In this document: positions 5,980 through 31,448 of the stretch, piece after piece
How positions within the stretch are numbered: position 1 is the first letter of the stretch
How the letters are laid out: each line of letters starts with the position of its first letter
IMG/VR virus record: IMGVR_UViG_3300025108_000227
Location: 1 to 31,955 of that record
Direction: 5' to 3' (one strand)
Length of the DNA: 31,955 bases
From: a virus
Position numbers and translations under genes: made by a program
The notes under the pieces: model-generated
What the model was told of the DNA's origin: nothing
The model's input: the letters and a program-made list of their open reading frames with translations, nothing else
Databases searched by the model: none

Positions 5980-8427
5980 TTAACAAGCCATTAGGACACA
6001 AGGCACACAGTATGACCCATCGTCATAGGTGTGCGATACATTGGTTGATGTTACTTTTGCGATTGTTTTGCTGCGAACAATGTCGTCACCTTGCGGCTTT
6101 GCCGTGCCATCGCCAGCACTCATTAGCAAGTCACCCCGTGCGACAGTTGTGCCTTGTGCGATACGGATAATCATGTCGCCTGTCATTGCGACATTCATGT
6201 CGGCGGTGTAGTCCTCGTCATCATTATCCCAGTTGACGAACACGCCAGCAACATTTGGGTCACCTTCAACTGAAGACACAGCCATACAGTTAAGCTGTTC
6301 GTTATCTTCTGTCACGCCATCCTTAGTCCACTCAGCCATCTGGTCTAAGTTAGTCATCACGGTGCCTTTGAGCAGGCCGTTAATACGGTTGCCGTCTGTA
6401 GCTTGTGACCAACGAGACAGGTGTCCACCGTTGTATGACACGGTAGTGCCAGATACTGAAATACTACCTTCAGCAGCGCCAGCCTGATAAAAAACTATTA
6501 AATCACCGTCAGAGGCGTTTCTATCTAAATATAATAAATTTGCGCCGCCTGTAATGCCAATATATCCAGCGCCACTGCCAGTATGTCCGTCAAGTACAAT
6601 ACCATTTCTTCCACTTACAGAACCCGTATTTGGGAAAAAAGTATTTTGACCACTATGTGAAATTCTCCAGCGTTCACTATCAGACCACATACGAATATTG
6701 CCAGCGCCATCTGACAGCACGACTCTGTTGCTGGCTGTGCGGATGTCTAGACCATCCTGATTGCCGTTGTAGCGGCCAAGAATGGTGTTATTAGAGCCTG
6801 TGGTGATATTGTCGCCAGAGCCTTGCCCAAAGAAACTATTTAATGCCCCAGTAGTTATGGATGCACCAGCAGCATGACCAAAAAATGCGTTTTGATACCC
6901 TGTAGTATTGGCAGTTCCAGCCTGATACCCAAACGCGGAATTGGTTGTACCAGTGGTGTTTGAAAGAAGTGCATTGTAACCTACCGCCGCATTTGAATGA
7001 CCACTAATGTTTGCTTGCAGAGCGGCATAGCCCATACCAGTATTGTTGGCACCAGTGGTGGTGTTCAACAAAGCGTTTACACCGACAGCGGCATTGCCAC
7101 TAGCCGTAGTGTTTTTATTCAGTGCAGCACTTCCCACTGCGGTGTTACTTACCCCCGTGGTGTTCAAAGCCAACGCCCCATTACCCACAGATGTATTGTC
7201 TGCTCCAGTAGTATTTGCTGATAGCGCAAGCCGACCTAGCCCAGTATTTCTATCTGCCGTGGTGTTTGCACTCAACGCTTGATAACCCACCGCTGTATTT
7301 CTTACGCCTGTAGTGTTAGCATCAAGTGACGAATGACCAACAGCCGTGTTCTGAGTGCCAGTGGTATTTGCATCCATCGCTGCATAACCAACAGCCGTGT
7401 TGGCGTTTGCTGTCGTATTGTTCTGCAAACTAGCCCTGCCTACAGCAACATTCTCTTCTCCTGTAGTATTCGCGGTCATAGAGTTTTGACCGATTGCGGT
7501 GTTAAGAGCGCCAGTGGTGTTTGCAGCTAGTGCAGCACTACCAACGGCTGTGTTGTTGCTTGAGGTGGTAGCTGCTTCAAGCGCACTTTTTCCAACCGCT
7601 ACATTAGACGAACCTGTAGTATGTGCGCTGAGAGAACTCGTTCCCAGAGCCGTATTGTTTGCGCCAGTGGTGTTTGCATACAATGATTGATAACCAACGG
7701 CGGTATTACCCCCACCAGTGGTCGTTACCTCCATCGCAAGGCCACCAACCGCTGTATTTAATTCAGCAGTAGTGTTTGAGTTCAAAGCGGAGTATCCAAT
7801 AGCCGTATTATAATCTAAGCCGCTATCAGTGACGTTATATGTCGCAAGCGCGGCATGACCAACAGCGGTATTGCGCCCACCCGTGGTGTTTGAAGTCATA
7901 GCGTTGTAGCCAATCGCCACGTTTCTAACACCTGTGGTGTTTGCGTCTAGTGATGTTGTTCCTACGGCTACGTTTCTGTCGCCTGTGGTGTTTGCGCCCA
8001 GTGCATCTTTACCCACACCAGTATTGTTGCTTGCTGTTGATGTCGCATCACCAGCTTGATGGCCTAAAAATGTGTTGCTATCGCCAGTTGTAATAGATGC
8101 ACCAGAGTTATGTCCAACGCCTGTGTTAGCGGTTGAGTCAGTTACTGCACCAAGAGCGTTATTGCCAATACCCACATTTTCTGTAGCACTTGTAGCTGCA
8201 TCAAGGGCGTTATCACCAATAGCAATATTATAGTTTCCAGATAGTGAACCGCCACTCAATGCCCCGTCACCCAACGCTACATTGTTAGTGCCTGTTGGAA
8301 AGTTACCGTCCAGCTTAACCGTGCCGCTATCCTGCGAGATGTTACCGCCAATAGTTATATTGTCTACAGTAACGGTGCCACTGAAGTCCTTATCGGCTGC
8401 ATCTGCTAAGTCTCTTGCTCTAGTCAC
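5980..8427 (-). CDS. Long tail fibre, about 30 tandem 17-residue repeats plus conserved C-terminal domain
   Basis: The start is GTG at 8427, preceded by AGGAGA at a normal distance. After a short N-terminal strand region (TRARDLADAADKDFSGTVTV), residues about 48-565 are about thirty copies of a 17-residue unit with consensus NTAVGYxALxANTTGxx; one copy is enlarged to 21 residues (NTAVGHAALATYNVTDSGLD). Such units are typical of trimeric beta-helical shafts and YadA-like stalks. The C-terminal 200 residues are a distinct domain with EDNEQLNCMAVSSVEGDP, MTGDMIIRIAQGTTVARGDL and the end TYDDGSYCVPCVLMAC. I recall this domain at the ends of other marine phage fibres, perhaps as a trimerisation or self-processing cap. 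It lacks an S74 signature. Confidence 0.85.
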   Translation of the reverse strand: MTRARDLADAADKDFSGTVTVDNITIGGNISQDSGTVKLDGNFPTGTNNVALGDGALSGGSLSGNYNIAIGDNALDAATSATENVGIGNNALGAVTDSTANTGVGHNSGASITTGDSNTFLGHQAGDATSTASNNTGVGKDALGANTTGDRNVAVGTTSLDANTTGVRNVAIGYNAMTSNTTGGRNTAVGHAALATYNVTDSGLDYNTAIGYSALNSNTTAELNTAVGGLAMEVTTTGGGNTAVGYQSLYANTTGANNTALGTSSLSAHTTGSSNVAVGKSALEAATTSSNNTAVGSAALAANTTGALNTAIGQNSMTANTTGEENVAVGRASLQNNTTANANTAVGYAAMDANTTGTQNTAVGHSSLDANTTGVRNTAVGYQALSANTTADRNTGLGRLALSANTTGADNTSVGNGALALNTTGVSNTAVGSAALNKNTTASGNAAVGVNALLNTTTGANNTGMGYAALQANISGHSNAAVGYNALLSNTTGTTNSAFGYQAGTANTTGYQNAFFGHAAGASITTGALNSFFGQGSGDNITTGSNNTILGRYNGNQDGLDIRTASNRVVLSDGAGNIRMWSDSERWRISHSGQNTFFPNTGSVSGRNGIVLDGHTGSGAGYIGITGGANLLYLDRNASDGDLIVFYQAGAAEGSISVSGTTVSYNGGHLSRWSQATDGNRINGLLKGTVMTNLDQMAEWTKDGVTEDNEQLNCMAVSSVEGDPNVAGVFVNWDNDDEDYTADMNVAMTGDMIIRIAQGTTVARGDLLMSAGDGTAKPQGDDIVRSKTIAKVTSTNVSHTYDDGSYCVPCVLMAC

Positions 8428-16602: not shown

Positions 16603-16749
16603 TTACTTTCTCTTCAATGTGCCGCCACGCATCTTACGCATAGCTTTGCCCTTTTTTGCCATGACTGGTTTCTTCATCATTGAACCACCACCGCGCATAG
16701 CTTTCTTTGCGCCCATTCCACCACGCATCTTACGCATTGGTTTCTTCAT
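16603..16749 (-). CDS. Tiny Met/Lys/Arg/Gly-rich protein (48 aa) with KMRGG repeats
   Basis: The frame opens at an ATG at 16749, inside the end of the 160-aa gene, and ends one base before the next start. The product is 48 aa, strongly basic, with no acidic residues. It holds two copies of MRKMRGG (about 5-11 and 37-43) and ends RKMRGGTLKRK. A composition this extreme is unlikely by chance in a compact operon, and the end echoes the RGGTFKGIF tails of genes at 28350-28726. It may bind DNA or the inside of the capsid. I know no named family. Confidence 0.62.
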   Translation of the reverse strand: MKKPMRKMRGGMGAKKAMRGGGSMMKKPVMAKKGKAMRKMRGGTLKRK

Positions 16750-18571: not shown

Positions 18572-18748
18572 TCAATAAATCTTTGTTGTGCGGTACTTGT
18601 ACGTTCCGCCGGTTGCTTTCTTTTTGCTGTTACCCCAGTTTGCTGCGCCAACTTTTCGGCATTTTGCGATGGCACCGCTTGCATACGCCGACGGGAAGAC
18701 CTTATAGCGGCGTTTAACTTTGTGATAGCATGCATCCTTCTTGCTCAT
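18572..18748 (-). CDS. 58-aa basic protein, KKDACYHKVKRRYKV family
   Basis: This short frame opens at ATG 18748 with AGAGG twelve bases upstream and ends with TGA at 18572, overlapping the next gene's possible TTG start. The product MSKKDACYHKVKRRYKVFPS then AYASGAIAKCRKVGAANWG is a small family I recognise from many marine phages and from large algal viruses. Its hallmarks are an early Cys-Tyr, a basic helix, PSAYASG and CRKxGAxNW. The two Cys may pair or bind metal. The function is unknown; the basic charge suggests a nucleic-acid or virion-core role. A competing 70-aa frame on the same strand has no family pattern. Confidence 0.8.
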   Translation of the reverse strand: MSKKDACYHKVKRRYKVFPSAYASGAIAKCRKVGAANWGNSKKKATGGTYKYRTTKIY

Positions 18749-24194: not shown

Positions 24195-24934
24195 CTTTTT
24201 AGCCCCGCTTGGAAAAACTGTTTTGCGCCCTCTACCATTGGGCTTATCTTCGGCTCTACATCACCATATGTAATACCACCTGTAAGTGGCTTCAACATAT
24301 TACTAAACATCCCGCTTGATCCTGTGAAATCTTCACTGGCTGGATCAAGTGTGGAGTCGTAAAACTCTGTGCCTTGGATTGCCAATGGATCTTTTCTCAG
24401 CGCACCAGTAAGTAATCCAACAGGTGTCCCCGCAGCGAGTATACTAAATATGCCTCGGCCTGCCATTTCCTGCCCAGACATGGGTCTGCGCTGCGCAGCT
24501 ACCATACCACGGCTGGTCATGTCCCCCGCAGATAGACCTTCGCGGAGCTGTCCAGTGGCTGCATCGCCGCCAACACGACGGCCCAATACATTTACAGATG
24601 CATATGGGTTCGTAAACCTGTCATAGGCCAGACGGTTCAAGTTTGCAATTCCGGCTGACCCACCGGGGATATTGTTCGCATAGCTTATATTCTTTGGGTC
24701 AATACCGAAAACTCGGCTAAAAAACCCTTCGTTTCCGTATGGATTTGTTTCGGTTCTTCCTGTGGCAAGCATAAAGTCCTGGACATTGTCCCTGCCCTTG
24801 TCTCTTTGGGCCTGCGCGTATCCTGATTGCTGACGTGCTTCTGTTACCTGACGTTCTCTCTCAGGAGAAGCCGCACCTCCACCTGGACCCCTAGCTTCTT
24901 GAGCAGCAGTTTCTCCACCAAAACCTCTAGGCAT
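24191..24934 (-). CDS. Gly/Ala-rich probable virion protein (247 aa)
   Basis: The first 60 residues are disordered-looking and charged (PRGFGGETAAQEARGPGGGA, then ERERQVTEARQQSGYAQAQR). Next comes a helical middle with NIPGGSAGIANLNRLAYDRF and a Gly/Ala/Ile-rich stretch GRGIFSILAAGTPVGLLTGA, possibly membrane-active. The C terminus has LKPLTGGITYGDVEPKISPM. Low complexity with amphipathic parts resembles internal virion proteins of short-tailed phages. The start overlaps the upstream stop by one base (TAATG), and its stop overlaps the next start (ATGA). No named family. Confidence 0.7.
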   Translation of the reverse strand: MPRGFGGETAAQEARGPGGGAASPERERQVTEARQQSGYAQAQRDKGRDNVQDFMLATGRTETNPYGNEGFFSRVFGIDPKNISYANNIPGGSAGIANLNRLAYDRFTNPYASVNVLGRRVGGDAATGQLREGLSAGDMTSRGMVAAQRRPMSGQEMAGRGIFSILAAGTPVGLLTGALRKDPLAIQGTEFYDSTLDPASEDFTGSSGMFSNMLKPLTGGITYGDVEPKISPMVEGAKQFFQAGLKR

Positions 24935-25320
24935 TACCTTGTTCCCGAAAACTTGCCGCCTTTAATGGCTGCGCCCATACCACGACAAGACATGTACTTA
25001 CCGTCTCCGGCTTCTACATATGTACCCATAGCAGCCTCACGAGTCTCTACATCTGTCTGACCAGGATTCTTTCTCTCGTTCCGATCACCAGGATTAGGAC
25101 GGCCCTTCTTCTTGTACATCTTAGAGTTTTCTCTACGCGCCCTAGCCTCTGGAGGTAGCGGACGGGGCGGGGTTACTTTTTCTTTCATTTCTGACATGTG
25201 TCTCTCCAAAACTTGTGAGCCGCCGTCGTTACGACGCCGTCCTTCATTTATAAGCTTTTTTGCTCCTGCCGTCGAGACACCAATGTCTCTGCCAAACTGT
25301 GCTGCTCTAGGTCTAGCCAT
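24934..25320 (-). CDS. Basic protein ending in GGKF motif (128 aa)
   Basis: The start is set at the ATG at 25320, where ATGGCTAG overlaps the end of the upstream holin-like gene; a longer frame from 25356 would lie inside that gene. The protein begins MARPRAAQFGRDIGVSTAGA, contains KKLINEGRRRNDGGSQVLER, a long Arg/Lys/Pro-rich region (PPRPLPPEARARRENSKMYK) and the end RGMGAAIKGGKFSGTR. The AKKLINEG start resembles a small helical DNA-binding-like motif but is not diagnostic. It probably resides in the virion core. The C-terminal GGKF echoes the RGGTFKGIF tails elsewhere. Confidence 0.72.
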   Translation of the reverse strand: MARPRAAQFGRDIGVSTAGAKKLINEGRRRNDGGSQVLERHMSEMKEKVTPPRPLPPEARARRENSKMYKKKGRPNPGDRNERKNPGQTDVETREAAMGTYVEAGDGKYMSCRGMGAAIKGGKFSGTR

Positions 25321-25531
25321 TGCCTTTTTCCTTTTCGTGGCCCAACCACACAGCAAATGCGCCGGTCATGGCTCCTGTCACTACACTAACTAAGCCTGCC
25401 TGCGCTGGTGTAGGGTCTGGCAATGTCATAAACCACTCCACTACCCGCCAAGCCGATATTGACATCATAACCATCATCAAGCGGGGTAATATCTTCCACC
25501 GCAGGAACCTTTCCATTGTCACGTCTGCCAC
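25313..25531 (-). CDS. Candidate holin-like small membrane protein (72 aa)
   Basis: The start is GTG at 25531, with GAGG at good distance; a Met at position 6 is an alternative. Two hydrophobic segments are visible, about 16-37 (LPRLMMVMMSISAWRVVEWF) and 44-63 (AGLVSVVTGAMTGAFAVWLG), joined by a short LPDPTPAQ turn, with a charged C terminus (HEKEKGNG). A two-helix hairpin with a short basic/acidic tail is a holin-like form, and the TGAMTGAFAVWLG block is one I recall from marine phage proteins next to portal genes. It shares 146 bases with the 66-aa frame in another register. Holin is the favoured but unproven call. Confidence 0.75.
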   Translation of the reverse strand: MADVTMERFLRWKILPRLMMVMMSISAWRVVEWFMTLPDPTPAQAGLVSVVTGAMTGAFAVWLGHEKEKGNG

Positions 25532-25586: not shown

Positions 25587-25969
25587 TATTTCTTCCCGAA
25601 GAATTTAGTCGCGCTACGAACTCCAAAAGAAGCGGCAACGATAACTCCCAAGGAATATTGATACCATTCAGGCATCGCATTGAGTTGTGCGAATCCGTTT
25701 GCAACTACTTCCTCCATGCCCGGAATGAAGGCTAAAATAAGCGGGATCGAAAACAAAATAGTAAGCCATTCGTCTTTCCACGAAGACTGACTACCCTTTG
25801 CCATCTCAAGATCCCAGTCAATCTCCCCAGTGGCTTTTTTCTGCATGACCACAGCTTCAGCCTGCGCCTTGGCAACCTTAGTTGCGGACTCAGCCTTCTT
25901 CTCTTCTACCTTGCCGTTGAGCCATGTACCGGCAAGGTTCGCTATTGGACCTATGAACGCCTGTATCAT
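25586..25969 (-). CDS. Candidate holin-like protein with two membrane helices (127 aa)
   Basis: The N terminus (MIQAFIGPIANLAGTWLNGK) is amphipathic, then a charged helical region VEEKKAESATKVAKAQAEAV precedes two hydrophobic spans, about 68-88 (WLTILFSIPLILAFIPG) and 104-120 (YSLGVIVAASFGVRSAT), with MPEWYQ between. The end is basic (KFFGKK). I recall this SSWKDEWL plus MPEWYQ pattern in marine phages, where it is often annotated as holin or 3TM holin, as in gene-transfer-agent release modules. It sits directly after the portal gene (ATGA overlap) and ahead of a second small membrane protein. No endolysin gene is nearby, so a virion role is also possible. Confidence 0.78.
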   Translation of the reverse strand: MIQAFIGPIANLAGTWLNGKVEEKKAESATKVAKAQAEAVVMQKKATGEIDWDLEMAKGSQSSWKDEWLTILFSIPLILAFIPGMEEVVANGFAQLNAMPEWYQYSLGVIVAASFGVRSATKFFGKK

Positions 25970-28350
25970 TTTCTTCCTGACAGTGCCGCCTGTGTGTTAA
26001 TGCGGTATATGTTGACATCGTTTCTGTCGCCAGCAATCTCTTCCTGAAGCTGCATACGCTGCTGGGCAAGATTGAATGCCTGCTGCATCTTGGCCTGATC
26101 GATCTGAAAGTCCATAGCGTCGTTCTGCATTTTACGCTGGATTTCCATCGTATCGTTCTGCAACTCCTGCTGGCGAATCCCGACCAGCGGATCTTGCTGC
26201 TGGGCTGGCTGAATCATTGGCATGATCTCTTTCATAATCTCACCAACCTGCTGTGCAACGGCTGACTCAATCACTGCTGGGTCAATCGTAGGCACTGGCT
26301 CTCCAGCCTGCTGTGCTTGCTGCTGCGCGTTGGTAAAGAACGCTGCAACCTGATCTCTCGCCAAGAAGGACACATGCTCTTGGACGTGAGCCTGCAACAG
26401 CAAGAAGCCTTGTGGATTTGCTGTAGCCACTGGTGAGGACAAGAACATGGCATGCGCCGCAATGTGCGACTCGTGATCCTGCTGTGGGAATGCCTGTGTT
26501 GGCTTGCCCTTTACAGCATTTGCGTTCTCGGTTGCCGGATCAATAGGTTGTGGCGGCTGTGGTGCCGGCAGGATGCTATCAATGTTCTTAACATCCAGCG
26601 CATCATACATCCGACGATATGCCTCGTACATGTTATGCATCTGCGGAGCAGCTTGCGCCAACTGCAACTGTGTCTGCGCCAAAGACAGGCGCTGAGACAT
26701 AGAGAAAATGGACGGATCACTAACAGGCAGAATATCCACACGCCCGTCGAAGTCCTGTGCCATGATCTCAGGCGGCACATTCACACCCACAAAGTATGGG
26801 TACGGCATTGGGTTATCTGCGAAGATCTCTGCCAGCAGCCGGAACTCCTGCTTCTGCCCATAATGCAGCCGCTTGTGGATACTGGAGATAATCTTTGAGC
26901 CTTGCTCAATCAGTGCAACCGTTGTTCCCACTGGCGCTTGAGAATTGACATCTGCGATTTTTGCATCTGCAACTTGTGCAAATCTTCTGCCGGAATCAAC
27001 AATAACCCCGAGGAGTTGAGCAAGTGTGCCAGAAGGCTCCTTATAAGGGAGGGGCATAAGAGCGTTGCGAAGATCGCCACCGGGAGCATCAATGTCACGA
27101 AACTCGCCAGGAGCAAGCGGCTCATCGTCGTTACGGATACGGACACCACGAGCCTTGAAACCCGCTGGAAGATTGGAAAGCGTTCCAGCATCGATAAGTT
27201 GTCTGAGGATTGATGTCGCTGCACGAGAGAGACCTCCTATAGTATGAAGAAGACCAAAGCCGTAAAAGCCGAACCCAGGCAAAAACTTATAATGCACGAA
27301 GTATTGTCTCTTGCGGCGGAGTGGATCTGTCTCCCGGAAGTTTCTAACCACTGAAAGAATCTTGCCTGACCCCTCATCCAGTGTGACGATATAAGGAAGC
27401 TTAACTCCCGTGGGTTCACCTTCTGCATCAACGTCTTCAAAACCGTCAAGGTCAAGTTCTGTGTGACACTCCAACAATGTGAACACATCGTCCCCATACG
27501 TTGGGCGAACCCCTTGAAGCTCGTTCTCAGTCTCTTTAATTGGTCCTGGATCATCTTCATCTTCTCCCTGCAACTCAATGTCCCGGTAAACACCTGAGAC
27601 CTGCATCTTGCGAAGTTCGTTCTCCGTCATGCGTACTACATGAGTTACCCGCTCTGCCGTGTTCAAATCACTAGCAGCATACGGGACAATCAGATCTTCC
27701 GCTGGTACGAACTTAGACACAGCCCGCTGTTTGGCGGGATCGAAGTATGTCTTCTTAAATGTGGAACCTGTCAGCGGTAAATAAAAGAGCATCTGATCCG
27801 TATCAGGATCGTACTCGTCCATAACCTCTGTAAGCTGGTAATTCATAAAGTCACTTACACGCTGCGCCTGATCTTCAGTCTGCGGTGTAGGTGTGCCAAC
27901 AACTTGCCCCTTTACAGGACCACCTGCCGGCAGCATTTCTTTGTAAGCCTGCGCCTGAAACTGCGTAACAGCCTCACTGAGCAGCGGATGGTGAACGCCA
28001 CTAGCACCCAAGAATGGTGCAGTGCGCTCTTCGTAGTTTACACCAAGAAGTCGTAGACCCTTGGAGATAGCCTCTTCCCAATCCTCACGAGATTCTTTGT
28101 CGCTCTCAACCCTGTCACGCAAGTCAGAGGACAACGAACCAAGGACCGAATCATCTAAGACCTCCGCCAGATTGGCGTTGTGGTCGTACATCTCAGCTTG
28201 GACCTCGACCATCTCTTCCATGCCCGCAAGCTCTATGCCATCAGGCAGACCCTCCTCCATAGGAAGCTCGACTTGCATCTCTTGAGGCATGACTTCTGAC
28301 GGACCGCCAGCACCCATAGCCGATTCAACCATCTGAGGAGGTAGTGCCAT
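25966..28350 (-). CDS. Portal protein, P22-type (794 aa)
   Basis: The 794-aa protein has an acidic N-terminal arm (about 1-70) and then SDLRDRVESDKESREDWEEA, GLRLLGVNYEERTAPFLGAS and GVHHPLLSEAVTQFQAQAYK, a pattern I recall for large P22-type portals of marine podoviruses. A middle LFYLPLTGSTFKKTYFDPAK segment and FLPGFGFYGFGLLHTIGGLS with SILRQLIDAGTLSNLPAGFK belong to the core. The C-terminal 150 residues are Gln/Met-rich helix (QELQNDTMEIQRKMQNDAMD) like the barrel of long portals. It forms the dodecameric DNA channel at one capsid vertex and the docking point for terminase and adaptors. The start overlaps the stop of the tiny 65-aa gene by one base. Confidence 0.88.
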   Translation of the reverse strand: MALPPQMVESAMGAGGPSEVMPQEMQVELPMEEGLPDGIELAGMEEMVEVQAEMYDHNANLAEVLDDSVLGSLSSDLRDRVESDKESREDWEEAISKGLRLLGVNYEERTAPFLGASGVHHPLLSEAVTQFQAQAYKEMLPAGGPVKGQVVGTPTPQTEDQAQRVSDFMNYQLTEVMDEYDPDTDQMLFYLPLTGSTFKKTYFDPAKQRAVSKFVPAEDLIVPYAASDLNTAERVTHVVRMTENELRKMQVSGVYRDIELQGEDEDDPGPIKETENELQGVRPTYGDDVFTLLECHTELDLDGFEDVDAEGEPTGVKLPYIVTLDEGSGKILSVVRNFRETDPLRRKRQYFVHYKFLPGFGFYGFGLLHTIGGLSRAATSILRQLIDAGTLSNLPAGFKARGVRIRNDDEPLAPGEFRDIDAPGGDLRNALMPLPYKEPSGTLAQLLGVIVDSGRRFAQVADAKIADVNSQAPVGTTVALIEQGSKIISSIHKRLHYGQKQEFRLLAEIFADNPMPYPYFVGVNVPPEIMAQDFDGRVDILPVSDPSIFSMSQRLSLAQTQLQLAQAAPQMHNMYEAYRRMYDALDVKNIDSILPAPQPPQPIDPATENANAVKGKPTQAFPQQDHESHIAAHAMFLSSPVATANPQGFLLLQAHVQEHVSFLARDQVAAFFTNAQQQAQQAGEPVPTIDPAVIESAVAQQVGEIMKEIMPMIQPAQQQDPLVGIRQQELQNDTMEIQRKMQNDAMDFQIDQAKMQQAFNLAQQRMQLQEEIAGDRNDVNIYRINTQAALSGRK

Positions 28351-28547
28351 TAAAATATTCCTTTGAATGTGCCACCGCGCTTTTTCATAACAGCTTTCGA
28401 CATGCCGCCATTACGCTTGTAGTCAGGCTCTGGTAAATCTTCAAACCTCTCACGGGCGTACTTAGCAGCCTGCTCAGTGGTCAAACCCATGTCCATCCCT
28501 TCGTCGAAAAGATCCTCAAGAATGGCTTCGTTCTGTTGATTGCTCAT
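28350..28547 (-). CDS. Tiny protein with RGGTFKGIF tail, copy 1 (65 aa)
   Basis: The 65-aa product begins SNQQNEAILEDLFDEGMDMG and continues with LTTEQAAKYARERFEDLPEP, both acidic helices, then a basic segment ending MSKAVMKKRGGTFKGIF. The last codons (TTCAAAGGAATATTT) contain AAAGGA, which serves as the ribosome binding site of the portal gene, whose ATG overlaps the stop. The start overlaps the stop of the 59-aa gene. Charge separates an acidic head from a basic tail, like a tether between scaffold-like and nucleic-acid-like partners. I know no family. Confidence 0.7.
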   Translation of the reverse strand: MSNQQNEAILEDLFDEGMDMGLTTEQAAKYARERFEDLPEPDYKRNGGMSKAVMKKRGGTFKGIF

Positions 28548-28726
28548 TAGAATATCCCTTTGAATGTGCCACCACGGGCTTTCATCACTGCACCAGACTT
28601 TGGCTTGCCAATCTGAGCTTTCTCAAGAAAAGCGTCAATCTCTCGTATTTTATCCAGACTCATACCCGTCCGGTTAGCCATTTTCTTTAGCTCTTTATCG
28701 TGCTTACCTTTTTTCTTGTCAGCCAC
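28547..28726 (-). CDS. Tiny protein with RGGTFKGIF tail, copy 2 (59 aa, GTG start)
   Basis: The frame opens at GTG 28726, which overlaps the upstream stop (TAGTG) and is preceded by AAGGGGA. It ends with TAA shared with the next ATG. The product MADKKKGKHDKELKKMANRT then GMSLDKIREIDAFLEKAQIG is basic, probably two helices, and ends KSGAVMKARGGTFKGIF, almost identical to the tail of copy 1. The N-terminal parts of the two are unrelated, so only the tail is shared. The frame is supported by the tail, both couplings and the lack of any other open frame. Confidence 0.68.
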   Translation of the reverse strand: MADKKKGKHDKELKKMANRTGMSLDKIREIDAFLEKAQIGKPKSGAVMKARGGTFKGIF

Positions 28727-28920
28727 TAGAATATCCCCTTAAATCTCTGTGGACGAGCAATCGGGCTAAAGCCCTTGATCATGCCGCCGGCTGCTTTCTT
28801 TACTGGAGCCTTTTTGGATTCAGCAAGAGCTTCCCGCTCTCGCTCCTTCTTGAGCTGATTTATCAACTGCGTCAACTCTTCATAGCTGGCAGTGGTAATG
28901 TCAATTTTTTTCGTAGGCAT
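28726..28920 (-). CDS. Tiny protein with RFKGIF tail, copy 3 (64 aa)
   Basis: The start is the ATG at 28920, with GGAGG at good distance (GGAGGATTTTTTGATG); a TTG just upstream is unlikely. The product begins MPTKKIDITTASYEELTQLI and has a charged helix (NQLKKEREREALAESKKAPV), then KKAAGGMIKGFSPIARPQRF and KGIF at the end. It has the same FKGIF finish as the two following tiny genes, but with a longer basic linker. The stop TAG overlaps the GTG of copy 2. The role is unknown; the three appear to be a matched set. Confidence 0.68.
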   Translation of the reverse strand: MPTKKIDITTASYEELTQLINQLKKEREREALAESKKAPVKKAAGGMIKGFSPIARPQRFKGIF

Positions 28921-28935
28921 CAAAAAATCCTCCGG

Positions 28936-29964
28936 TCAAGAGTATAATCGAAACACGTCGGCGATACCACCCCGAGCCTTCTTTACTAACTTCAGGTCAG
29001 GCTTTGCCGGTTTTTTAGGTAACCCAACACCCACAGCGTCCCGCTGCTGGCCCTCTGCAAACATACGCATCGCATCCGCCCTAGCAGCAGCGTCCATATC
29101 CGGAGTTACCCCCGCAGCCTGTTCCAAAGCAGCAGTCCTCGCCCTTACCTCCGCTGCTTCAGGAGACGCCTCATACCTCGCCCGCTCCGCCTTCAACTCC
29201 ATCTCTCGACGAGACTTGCTACCCTCCACGCGCCGAGCTACAAGATCATCCAACCCAGTAAAAGCTTCACGGTCCGGGTTCCGACGCGCAATGTCCTTCA
29301 ACAAATCATCAGCAACTATAAGCGTGTCGCCAACAGCCTCGTTCACCCTATTTGCACTTTGAACCAAAGCACTCGTTAATGCCTCACTCTGAGGTAAACC
29401 TTCATCCAGTAACCCCTGGTACTCCAACACAACATCTTCCGCAAAATCAGTAGGACCACCTAAACCATAATCCTCAAGGTTGTAGTCGGAAACCATGTCC
29501 TCAACTTCTACCTCAACCTTCCGAGAACGGGCGTTCAATACCTCAACGTCCGAGGGCGGAGCTTTTAGCTGCGCGTCACTCGTACCTTGAAGCTCGGACC
29601 CCTGACCTTTTTTCACACGAGCGGCTTTTGCAAATTGAGAAGCAATGCCCACTAAGCTGCCTTCCATGCCCAAGCCACCAACAACACGACCAATCGTCTC
29701 TTCCGTGCTGCCTGTAGGACGATCATAAGTTACCCCGATAGCCTCTCCGAGGTCCGCGTACTTATCTATCAGGTACTCTGATCCCATCACCGGCTTGTCA
29801 GAAACAGGTATACCAACCGCACCCATAGCCATGTTGACGATATCAACAGGGGCACCAATCAAATCAAAAGGCGCGTACTTCGCACCACGCACTATGTCAG
29901 ATTTTATCTGGTCAGCCCGCTCTGGATCGAAGGGCTTCTTGCCGGGACGGTCACCTTGAGCCAT
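28936..29964 (-). CDS. Probable internal virion protein between terminase and portal (342 aa)
   Basis: The N-terminal block PFDPERADQIKSDIVRGAKY, then APFDLIGAPVDIVNMAMGAV and SDKPVMGSEYLIDKYADLGE, is a module I recall at the start of internal or tail-tip proteins of marine phages. The rest is helical and charged, with Ala/Glu/Arg-rich stretches (RREMELKAERARYEASPEAA, MRMFAEGQQRDAVGV), and ends LVKKARGGIADVFRLYS. Its start overlaps the terminase stop (TGATG). Function is unknown; an ejected or capsid-interior protein is likely. The KKARGG tail loosely matches the tails of the following three small proteins. Confidence 0.72.
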   Translation of the reverse strand: MAQGDRPGKKPFDPERADQIKSDIVRGAKYAPFDLIGAPVDIVNMAMGAVGIPVSDKPVMGSEYLIDKYADLGEAIGVTYDRPTGSTEETIGRVVGGLGMEGSLVGIASQFAKAARVKKGQGSELQGTSDAQLKAPPSDVEVLNARSRKVEVEVEDMVSDYNLEDYGLGGPTDFAEDVVLEYQGLLDEGLPQSEALTSALVQSANRVNEAVGDTLIVADDLLKDIARRNPDREAFTGLDDLVARRVEGSKSRREMELKAERARYEASPEAAEVRARTAALEQAAGVTPDMDAAARADAMRMFAEGQQRDAVGVGLPKKPAKPDLKLVKKARGGIADVFRLYS

Positions 29965-31448
29965 CAGTAATACTCTCTTGTCTTGGACGGCAACCAGTCA
30001 TCAAGCTCTTCACCATGCAGACTAATAAACCCGCCCTGCCTAAAACGCATCAGAGCCATTGTCATGCTGTCACAGAAGTCATCGTGATCTCCGTTAGGAA
30101 ACGAAGCTACCTCTTCAATCACTTCTTCAGCAAATCTCCTACCAGAAGGATACCACACTTTACCAGATTCAAATATAGGAGAAGCCATATGCATGCGAGT
30201 TGTCTTATCAACACCCCCACCGCCCTTTTTCCGGCCCGGAGAAAACGTAGTAACCGGCAGATTGATCAAGCGCATCTCGTCCGCGAGCGGAGTACCTGAT
30301 GCCTTGGCCTCAATCAACATCATGTCCGGCTCCCAATACTCATTCTCCTCTGTAGCAATCTGCTTCAGCTCTGGGAAGTTCCACCGCCCCTTCTTCGCGT
30401 CGAGCATAATCAAATGCTGCTCGCCGTTATCATGCGGCTCAAACACGCCCCACGTCGTGATGGCAGTGTAGTCAGCCGTCTCCTTCTTGCTGTACGCAGT
30501 ATCATAAGACTGAATGACATACTGTAGAGCAGGTATATCCTCCTCTTCCCACGGTTGCCACCACTCCCGCTTGATCATCGCCGTCTCTTCAGAGACGGGA
30601 TTCTGCTGCCACTGAGCGTTCCACTTTCCAGGCGAAAGCGAAGCTTTTACCTTTAATAGCTCATCTTTTTTCCAAAATTCAGGCCAAAGAGGCTCGTCAG
30701 AAGGCATAATGGCAGGAAACTCTACCACCTCCCACTGATCAGACATGATGTCGTTACCCTGTGCTTGCAGTAACCGGCCCGTCAAATCCTTCTTTGACCA
30801 CCGTGTTTGCACAATGATAATGGAACCACCCGGCTGAAGACGCTGTCTCGGACCCGAAGTGTACCACTCATAGGTTCTATCATACGCAGTGGGAGATAAC
30901 GCATCCTGCTCCGAGTGCGGATCGTCAATAATCACCAAGTCACCACCACGACCAGTCATTGCTGCGCCCACCCCAGCAGCAAAATACTCGCCCCCCGCGC
31001 TGGTCTCCCACCGACCTGCCGCTTGGGAATCCTGTTTCAAGTCCGTGTTTGGAAAGATCTCCGCATACTTGGGGTCAGCGATCAGATCTCGGACTTTCCT
31101 GCCGAATCTTACAGCAAGTTCAGTGTTCATGGTAGCCTGAATGATTTTCAACTTCGGATTTCGGCCCAAGAACCACGAAGGCATGAGGTAGGACGCAAAC
31201 TCAGACTTACTGTGACGAGGGGGCATGTTCACAATCAATCGCTTCAAGTCACCCGAAGCTATGCGCTCTAACTTTTCTGCAATGATTTTATGATGTCGGC
31301 CCACGATGAACCCATCATACACATGCTGGACGTAGTCCATGAAGTTATCTTGCGCTGATTCTCGGGTCTCCAGGAGCTTTAGCTGCTGTTCTAGCAGCAG
31401 CATTTCTCGGAGGTCGTCCTCTGGGACTGTATCTAATCCTATGCTCAT
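29964..31448 (-). CDS. terL: Terminase large subunit (ATPase plus nuclease)
   Basis: The 494-aa protein carries a Walker A-type loop MPPRHSKSE at 75-83, Walker B VIIDD at 172-176 (GGDLVIIDDPHSEQDA) and the coupling motif QTRWSKKD at about 214-221. The C-terminal RNase H-like nuclease has acidic residues at Asp316 (SYDTAYSK), Glu380 (LIEAKASG) and Asp456/Asp460 (NGDHDDFCDSM). It is the motor that drives DNA through the portal and cuts the concatemer. Full length and all motifs are present. It is the first gene of the minus-strand operon. No Shine-Dalgarno is visible in front of the ATG (TTCCGGCATG), and no small terminase gene is found. Confidence 0.95.
   Translation of the reverse strand: MSIGLDTVPEDDLREMLLLEQQLKLLETRESAQDNFMDYVQHVYDGFIVGRHHKIIAEKLERIASGDLKRLIVNMPPRHSKSEFASYLMPSWFLGRNPKLKIIQATMNTELAVRFGRKVRDLIADPKYAEIFPNTDLKQDSQAAGRWETSAGGEYFAAGVGAAMTGRGGDLVIIDDPHSEQDALSPTAYDRTYEWYTSGPRQRLQPGGSIIIVQTRWSKKDLTGRLLQAQGNDIMSDQWEVVEFPAIMPSDEPLWPEFWKKDELLKVKASLSPGKWNAQWQQNPVSEETAMIKREWWQPWEEEDIPALQYVIQSYDTAYSKKETADYTAITTWGVFEPHDNGEQHLIMLDAKKGRWNFPELKQIATEENEYWEPDMMLIEAKASGTPLADEMRLINLPVTTFSPGRKKGGGGVDKTTRMHMASPIFESGKVWYPSGRRFAEEVIEEVASFPNGDHDDFCDSMTMALMRFRQGGFISLHGEELDDWLPSKTREYY

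Follow-up and report, generated by a model that had tools for sequence, protein, structure and literature searches.

Where one gene overlaps the next, the Shine-Dalgarno (SD) sequence of the downstream gene commonly lies within the upstream one (PMC6728339; PMC2784483), and in E. coli removal of this SD lowered reinitiation in four of the five pairs tested (Huber et al. 2019, PMC6728339). Gene borders have also been considered as places of recombination in phages: for the lambdoid phages, short conserved boundary sequences were proposed as sites of homologous exchange (references 21 and 22 of PMC3029335, as cited there; Susskind and Botstein 1978 and Clark et al. 2001, as cited in PMC8022706 and PMC3029335), and the nin region was termed a “chain of interlinked genes” (Kroger and Hobom 1982, as cited in PMC8022706). 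In mycobacteriophage Island3, according to the section of Pope et al. (2011, PMC3029335) on gp67/gp68, a small gene with no homologues, missing from a close relative, has its C-terminal 18 residues (about 50 bp) in common with the gene upstream, and recombination between the repeats was inferred. Cluster K mycobacteriophages carry Start-Associated Sequences, repeated elements with a ribosome binding site that precede genes of different families and were suggested as a possible target of recombination (PMC3203893). The element described here unites these precedents and takes them further, to some hundred unrelated genes. It is a C-terminal tail ending in FKG(x)(F/Y), carried by three consecutive micro-genes in the IMG/VR virus record IMGVR_UViG_3300025108_000227, the whole of which (31,955 bases; hereafter “the window”) was analyzed. 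On the evidence of sequence comparison the tail is probably a protein-coding linker, at once a C-terminal peptide, the start signal of the next gene, and a border at which genes are exchanged and inserted.

An earlier note on this DNA had drawn attention to three tandem genes ending in FKGIF and leading through one-base overlaps into the portal gene, and this arrangement is confirmed in the sequence:

28726..28920, minus strand: micro-gene 1, 64 amino acids (aa) from ATG, or 65 aa from an alternative TTG start at 28923; tail KKAAGGMIKGFSPIARPQRFKGIF, ending ARPQRFKGIF, then TAGTG.
28547..28726, minus strand: micro-gene 2, 59 aa from a GTG start; tail SGAVMKARGGTFKGIF, ending KARGGTFKGIF, then TAATG.
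28350..28547, minus strand: micro-gene 3, 65 aa; tail GGMSKAVMKKRGGTFKGIF, ending KKRGGTFKGIF, then TAATG.
28729..28743, minus strand: FKGIF codons of gene 1, with the SD AAGGGG (28735-28740) serving gene 2; stop/start TAGTG.
28550..28564, minus strand: FKGIF codons of gene 2, with the SD AAAGGG (28556-28561) serving gene 3; stop/start TAATG.
28353..28367, minus strand: FKGIF codons of gene 3, with the SD AAAGGA (28359-28364) serving the portal gene; stop/start TAATG.

Each micro-gene stop overlaps the following start by one base, the ATG of the final TAATG being the portal start. The tail DNA of the three genes reads TTTAAGGGGATATTC, TTCAAAGGGATATTC and TTCAAAGGAATATTT. FKGIF followed by a stop occurs exactly three times in the record, always within this chain, and the reversed control pattern does not occur in it. 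The longer ending K(A/K)RGGTFKGIF, previously noted in two of the products, belongs to genes 2 and 3 only, which have VMK(A/K)RGGTFKGIF in common; micro-gene 1 represents a second tail class, GFSPIARPQ[RK]FKG, and shares only its last five residues with the other two. Relatives of micro-gene 1 are 42-67% identical to it, and the N-terminus of micro-gene 3 matches phrog_9309.

Loci with comparable gene ends were gathered by two pattern scans and by searches of IMG/VR with the portal and the three micro-proteins; the sample comprises several hundred loci (designated by L numbers), and the scan counts are lower bounds. At least 305 proteins in it, from related uncultured phages, end in FKG(x)(F/Y). 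The N-terminal parts of 271 of them fall into at least 104 clusters (blastp, 1e-3), that is, the tail recurs on about 100 unrelated bodies. Searches with one representative per cluster hit 12 families in Pfam (E<=0.01) and 8 in PHROGs (E<=0.001), with one member each, the matches being one LysM protein, endolysin-type PHROGs in single members, one DUF6496 and a few without a name. The LysM protein (L245:213-890, minus strand; Pfam E=3.9e-09) is among the few FKG-tailed proteins with a recognizable domain. A scan of IMG/VR with degenerate DNA for GGTFKG, in which no stop codon was required, gave at least 134 distinct occurrences together with the loci from the other searches, and in 133 of the 134 the stop lies exactly two residues further on. 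Among the matches listed, at least 119 of these 133 tails overlap the next start (as TAATG, TGATG or TAGTG) and the other 14 have a start no more than 6 nucleotides (nt) away; the search of relatives for FKG-ending genes before a stop/start overlap, which had been proposed as a check, thus finds many. Consecutive FKG-tailed genes form at least 70 runs of two, at least 23 of three and at least one of four, and in four longer contigs (45-57 kb) all matches to the tail pattern are confined to one short chain.

A pattern search of isolate records found one FKG tail in the cultured pelagiphage HTVC023P, in which gp51 ends RGGGAAVRGMGFKGVF and overlaps gp52, and which makes laboratory work possible. 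A nucleotide search with positions 28300-29000 gave no match in the phage collection, nor did a 23-aa tail query; an exact-pattern scan of one genome per bacterial or archaeal species did not find the tail, and hence no link to a prophage was found there.

Two close relatives of the window differ from it precisely at the tails. Contig IMGVR_UViG_3300030103_000728 (L265, the same contig as L379) is 99.2-99.4% identical to the window on both flanks and shows no similarity to it across one stretch:

28595..28707, minus strand: body of gene 2; in L265/L379 a longer, unrelated body takes its place, with the initial codons on one side and the tail on the other.

Gene 2 of that contig encodes 129 aa, with first codons and tail unchanged. 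The second relative, IMGVR_UViG_3300021197_000246 (L382), is about 99% identical to the window and has genes 1-3 as found there, followed by a fourth gene of 74 aa before the portal. Its extra length is 224 bp, and the inserted micro-gene is bracketed by two copies of a repeat:

28348..28385, minus strand: 38 nt of tail plus stop/start, present twice in L382; the blastn blocks overlap by exactly this stretch.

Swaps and insertions of this kind could in principle be chimaeric joins made by metagenome assemblers at repeated tails, and it counts against our interpretation that the direct events all lie in uncultured contigs, the two nearest the window in one contig each. However, both flanks of L265 and of L382 match one genome at about 99%, so that an artefact would take two joins no more than a few hundred bases apart; L380 and L381, two contigs of other datasets, have the window's own micro-gene array as well; the exchange pattern described below persists at 85-95% downstream identity, where the tails have since diverged; and the results on codon choice and peptide constraint are independent of assembly. 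We regard assembly artefacts as a highly improbable source of these events.

On a larger scale, gene ends were compared where a downstream stretch of at least 130 bases was at least 85% identical. Among these pairs, which share ancestry and are not independent, an exchange of the body with its breakpoint less than 60 nt from the stop was seen for FKG-tailed overlapping small genes in 109 of 221 (25 of 51 downstream clusters), as against 8 of 125 for other overlapping small genes (6 of 42 clusters) and 34 of 410 for the remaining small genes (8 of 149 clusters). Downstream clusters with such exchange number 26. In exchanged pairs with a downstream identity of at least 95%, third codon positions of the tail agree at 0.87, compared with 0.85 in unexchanged pairs and 0.50 in unlinked tails, indicating that the tail was inherited with the downstream gene; identity in exchanged pairs reaches background 42-48 nt before the stop. 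Insertions relative to another contig were counted as well: 15 junctions with an insertion versus 142 continuous ones for FKG overlaps, 10 versus 258 for other overlapping genes, and 11 versus 659 for non-overlapping genes. In several of the 15 FKG insertions, 15-51 nt of tail stand on either side. Breakpoints beyond the stop were also measured and rejected as a discriminator, as they fall at the start codon in other genes too. In L383, L386 and L387, the second gene of the chain has different bodies with a common tail, GGEVRGMGRAYMG(A/V)SRKAKIR, and a TGATG overlap, so that the exchange pattern extends beyond FKG tails.

The start signal within the tail requires some care in its assessment. 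Lys-Gly is encoded by AAR GGN and contains AAGG whatever the codons; the presence of AAGG is therefore not independent evidence, which has to come from codon choice, and its synonymous loss, by which the earlier note would have refuted the double role, cannot occur. For the same reason an SD-like word stands at 13-14 nt in all 294 FKG overlaps. The glycine codon of Lys-Gly is GGA in 175 of 281 coupled tails (62%) and in 544 of 2552 internal Lys-Gly pairs (21%; Fisher p about 1e-43), while internal FKG, as a control, has GGA in 23% of 145 cases. With one protein per N-terminal cluster the share in tails is 59% (p=1.5e-16), and within RGGTFKG tails GGA accounts for 1% of the first glycine, 38% of the second and 69% of that in Lys-Gly. 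Judged by this codon choice, the SD that the upstream gene carries at its 3' end is under selection.

Where the lysine is replaced, the SD is often rebuilt: FQG is written CAAGGAG, FRG gives AGAGG, and FVGEF or FMGEF give GGAGAG. The glutamate of the last two sits exactly where the SD is restored, and VGEF and MGEF would apparently represent compensatory changes for the SD. In the FSPIARPQRF tail class (L166, L191, L195, L196, L200), a Lys changed to Val or Met is followed at the second residue by Glu (VGEF, MGEF), and GGAG is thereby rebuilt.

Overlapping genes ordinarily have the SD of the second inside the first, and the tail might be a by-product of this rule, Lys-Gly at codons -4/-3 being among the few available spellings, toward which unrelated gene ends would converge. 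The general rule is published (PMC2784483; PMC6728339), and it is evident in these phages: other overlapping gene ends have an SD-like word in 396 of 628 cases, versus 15% of random positions, and the endings REYY, RI[YT] and VRIF serve as SD carriers too. Convergence of this kind fails, however, to account for conservation that reaches back about 14 codons, beyond the needs of an SD, with stronger constraint on the protein than in the bodies (see below); for GGTFKG being nearly confined to C-termini (133 of 134 among the matches listed); or for synonymous tail positions that swapped genes share by descent. We consider such an origin unlikely.

The constraint on the peptide was measured at tail codons -14 to -6, which had played no part in selecting the sequences. 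Over 477 pairs with homologous bodies, the ratio of nonsynonymous to synonymous differences (pN/pS) is 0.29 in these codons and 0.44 in the bodies, at similar pS; the ratio of tail to body is 0.66, with a bootstrap range of 0.58-0.74 over non-independent pairs. The peptide is thus constrained, and more so than the bodies to which it is attached. The double coding proposed in the earlier note can be maintained on the strength of the GGA bias and of this constraint, with the presence of AAGG itself dropping out as evidence; its assignment of AAGG as the SD of the following gene is likewise supported by codon bias, as an instance of a common arrangement. Selection attests the peptide and the start-signal roles, and the natural variants attest the role as linker.

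Given this constraint, it could be argued that the tail serves primarily to direct proteins to a target, or dock them there, the target being for instance the capsid, the portal or a host factor. Unrelated proteins would then have it in common through a shared destination, and codon choice would have superimposed the SD later. Tails of the types RG(M/T)GAAxxGTKFKG and FSG(V/T)Y retain the order F-x-G-x-aromatic on other proteins, sometimes without an SD or overlap, and gp30 of HTVC023P, which precedes the portal, has KARGG without FKG. Yet in recent swaps the tail follows the downstream gene and not the body, and N-termini related to that of micro-gene 3 (L319, L320) lack both the FKG tail and an overlap in places that have no coupled gene; partner and localization are themselves hypothetical. 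A primary role as address seems to us improbable, if slightly less so than convergence.

We favor the reading of the tail as a linker, which may work as follows. A stretch of 40-45 nt encodes a conserved C-terminal peptide, typically GG-AVMK(A/K/N)RGGTFKG(I/T/V)(F/Y), and the same nucleotides hold an SD (AAAGGA and variants); its distance from the next start, which has one base in common with the stop, is fixed. A ribosome ending one micro-gene would be positioned for the next start, and translation would continue along the chain, beginning on the terminase side and reaching the portal. The tail also supplies a stretch of DNA identity between neighboring genes and, together with the stop/start, behaves as a unit that belongs to the downstream gene. 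Recombination between tails, whether homologous or by annealing, could then replace a body, or add or remove a whole micro-gene, with the frame, the C-terminus and the start signal of the next gene preserved; a part for recombination or annealing enzymes in this step is suggested by the repeats.

Several observations weigh against this reading. In pairs where one member has the FKG tail and the other does not, the tail itself was lost or gained in 57 of 69, which means that the genes can do without the linker. There are FSG(V/T)Y tails that have no SD and yet overlap the following start; they keep the peptide shape, so that the two roles are separable. As to the duplicated cassette that was thought to chain micro-genes together, the chaining is supported by the exchange in L265/L379 and the insertion in L382, whereas third positions of tails agree at 0.61 within a genome and 0.50 between genomes, barely more than at random, so that most tails are unlikely to have arisen by duplication inside a single genome. 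No FKG tail is present in HTVC027P, CRP-901, DSL-LC04 or 023Pt_psg01, and the gene endings of the cultured relatives are mostly of other kinds. Finally, one of the pattern scans demanded a stop/start overlap, and genes were called by a simple longest-open-reading-frame rule.

The window is a late-gene segment of a tailed phage, the record being a genome fragment. The minus strand carries, in this order, the terminase large subunit, a gene of 342 aa, the three micro-genes and the portal:

29964..31448, minus strand: terminase large subunit (phrog_38, E=8e-108), the fixed upstream end of the chain; its tail TREYY overlaps the next start.
28936..29964, minus strand: gene of 342 aa, function unassigned, upstream of the chain; it ends KKARGGIADVFRLYS and does not overlap gene 1.
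25966..28350, minus strand: portal protein gene (PHROG portal phrog_1216, E=1.6e-55), the fixed downstream end of the chain.

The portal is 45-58% identical, in the aligned parts, to those of Pelagibacter phages HTVC027P and HTVC023P, phages 023Pt_psg01 and DSL-LC04, and Roseobacter phages CRP-901/902. Among 68 loci sampled by their portal, with the tail ignored in the choice, 60 have a gene before the portal that overlaps its start; 23 of these 60 genes have the terminase-type ending REYY and 16 an FKG tail, and one further FKG tail stands at a gap. With terminase-type endings directly before the portal, the terminase-portal interval looks like a place where micro-genes were inserted into an otherwise direct pair, the direction being inferred. 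A second common tail, (N)(R/N)(F/Y)SD(R/I)(M/L)(L/A)PxKK(R/K)xTRI(Y/T), is found on different bodies before the portal (L128, L130, L131, L132, L133, L135, L138, L139), with an SD (GAGGAT, AAGGAT) at the same position.

Elsewhere in the window, the product of 24934-25323 (minus) is by eye akin to the largest N-terminal cluster of FKG proteins (L006); its tail is CRGMGAAIKGGKFSGTR with a TAATG overlap, a body of the same family thus having a different ending. A small domain with a YKV(F/Y)PSAYA-like core is found at 18572-18748 (minus), in HTVC023P gp51 and in HTVC027P gp49, with different endings (TTKIY, FKGVF and MMVDV). Positions 16603-16749 (minus) encode a basic protein of 48 aa with MRKMRGG-like repeat units and a GGTLKRK end, which overlaps the preceding gene. 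The 815-aa product of 5980-8427 (minus) consists mostly of NTTGxxNTAVG-type repeats and is probably a tail fibre or spike; the strand complementary to it contains spurious reading frames.

Compared with the systems described before, termination-reinitiation pairs likewise combine a stop/start overlap with an SD in the upstream 3' end (Huber et al. 2019, PMC6728339; Palleja et al. 2009, PMC2784483), but a shared peptide and exchange of cassettes are absent there. Start-Associated Sequences are 13 bp long and defined by their place before start codons, not as the common C-terminus of upstream proteins (PMC3203893). The features of boundary-sequence recombination, a border sequence that recurs on unrelated genes and breakpoints at that border, are both found with the FKG tail. 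Lambdoid overlaps, as far as the citing papers describe them, are ATGA, in contrast to a conserved protein tail of about 14 residues with an SD inside. We know of no shared C-terminal peptide on unrelated genes at lambdoid borders. Integron-type gene cassettes were considered because the micro-genes behave like cassettes; the FKG repeat is coding and ends in a stop/start. The Island3 gp67/gp68 event is nearly the same as the insertion in L382; it is a single case, and a role in start signal or coupling is not noted in the section of PMC3029335 that describes it, whereas the FKG linker occurs on about 100 unrelated bodies. For the FKG tail itself no description was found in the open-access papers searched, in agreement with the earlier note, though the principle has precedents (PMC3029335 and, as cited there, its references 21 and 22).

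A tentative and rather doubtful extension is that the tail acts as a plug-in socket for gene birth: any reading frame gaining it would receive a C-terminus, a place in the translation chain and a handle for recombination, and the peptide would direct the new product to a shared partner, either in the virion or in the host. If this were true, the terminase-portal interval would be a site of continual micro-gene trials. Tiny genes without relatives abound in phages, and their entry into operons whose tight coupling must be preserved poses a problem; one short sequence appears to provide a solution here, with the events visible in near-identical genomes. With the FKG tail it can be tested how selection acts when peptide, start signal and recombination site all lie in one stretch; the tail would explain the hypervariable micro-genes between two essential genes, and would provide a search handle for such genes.

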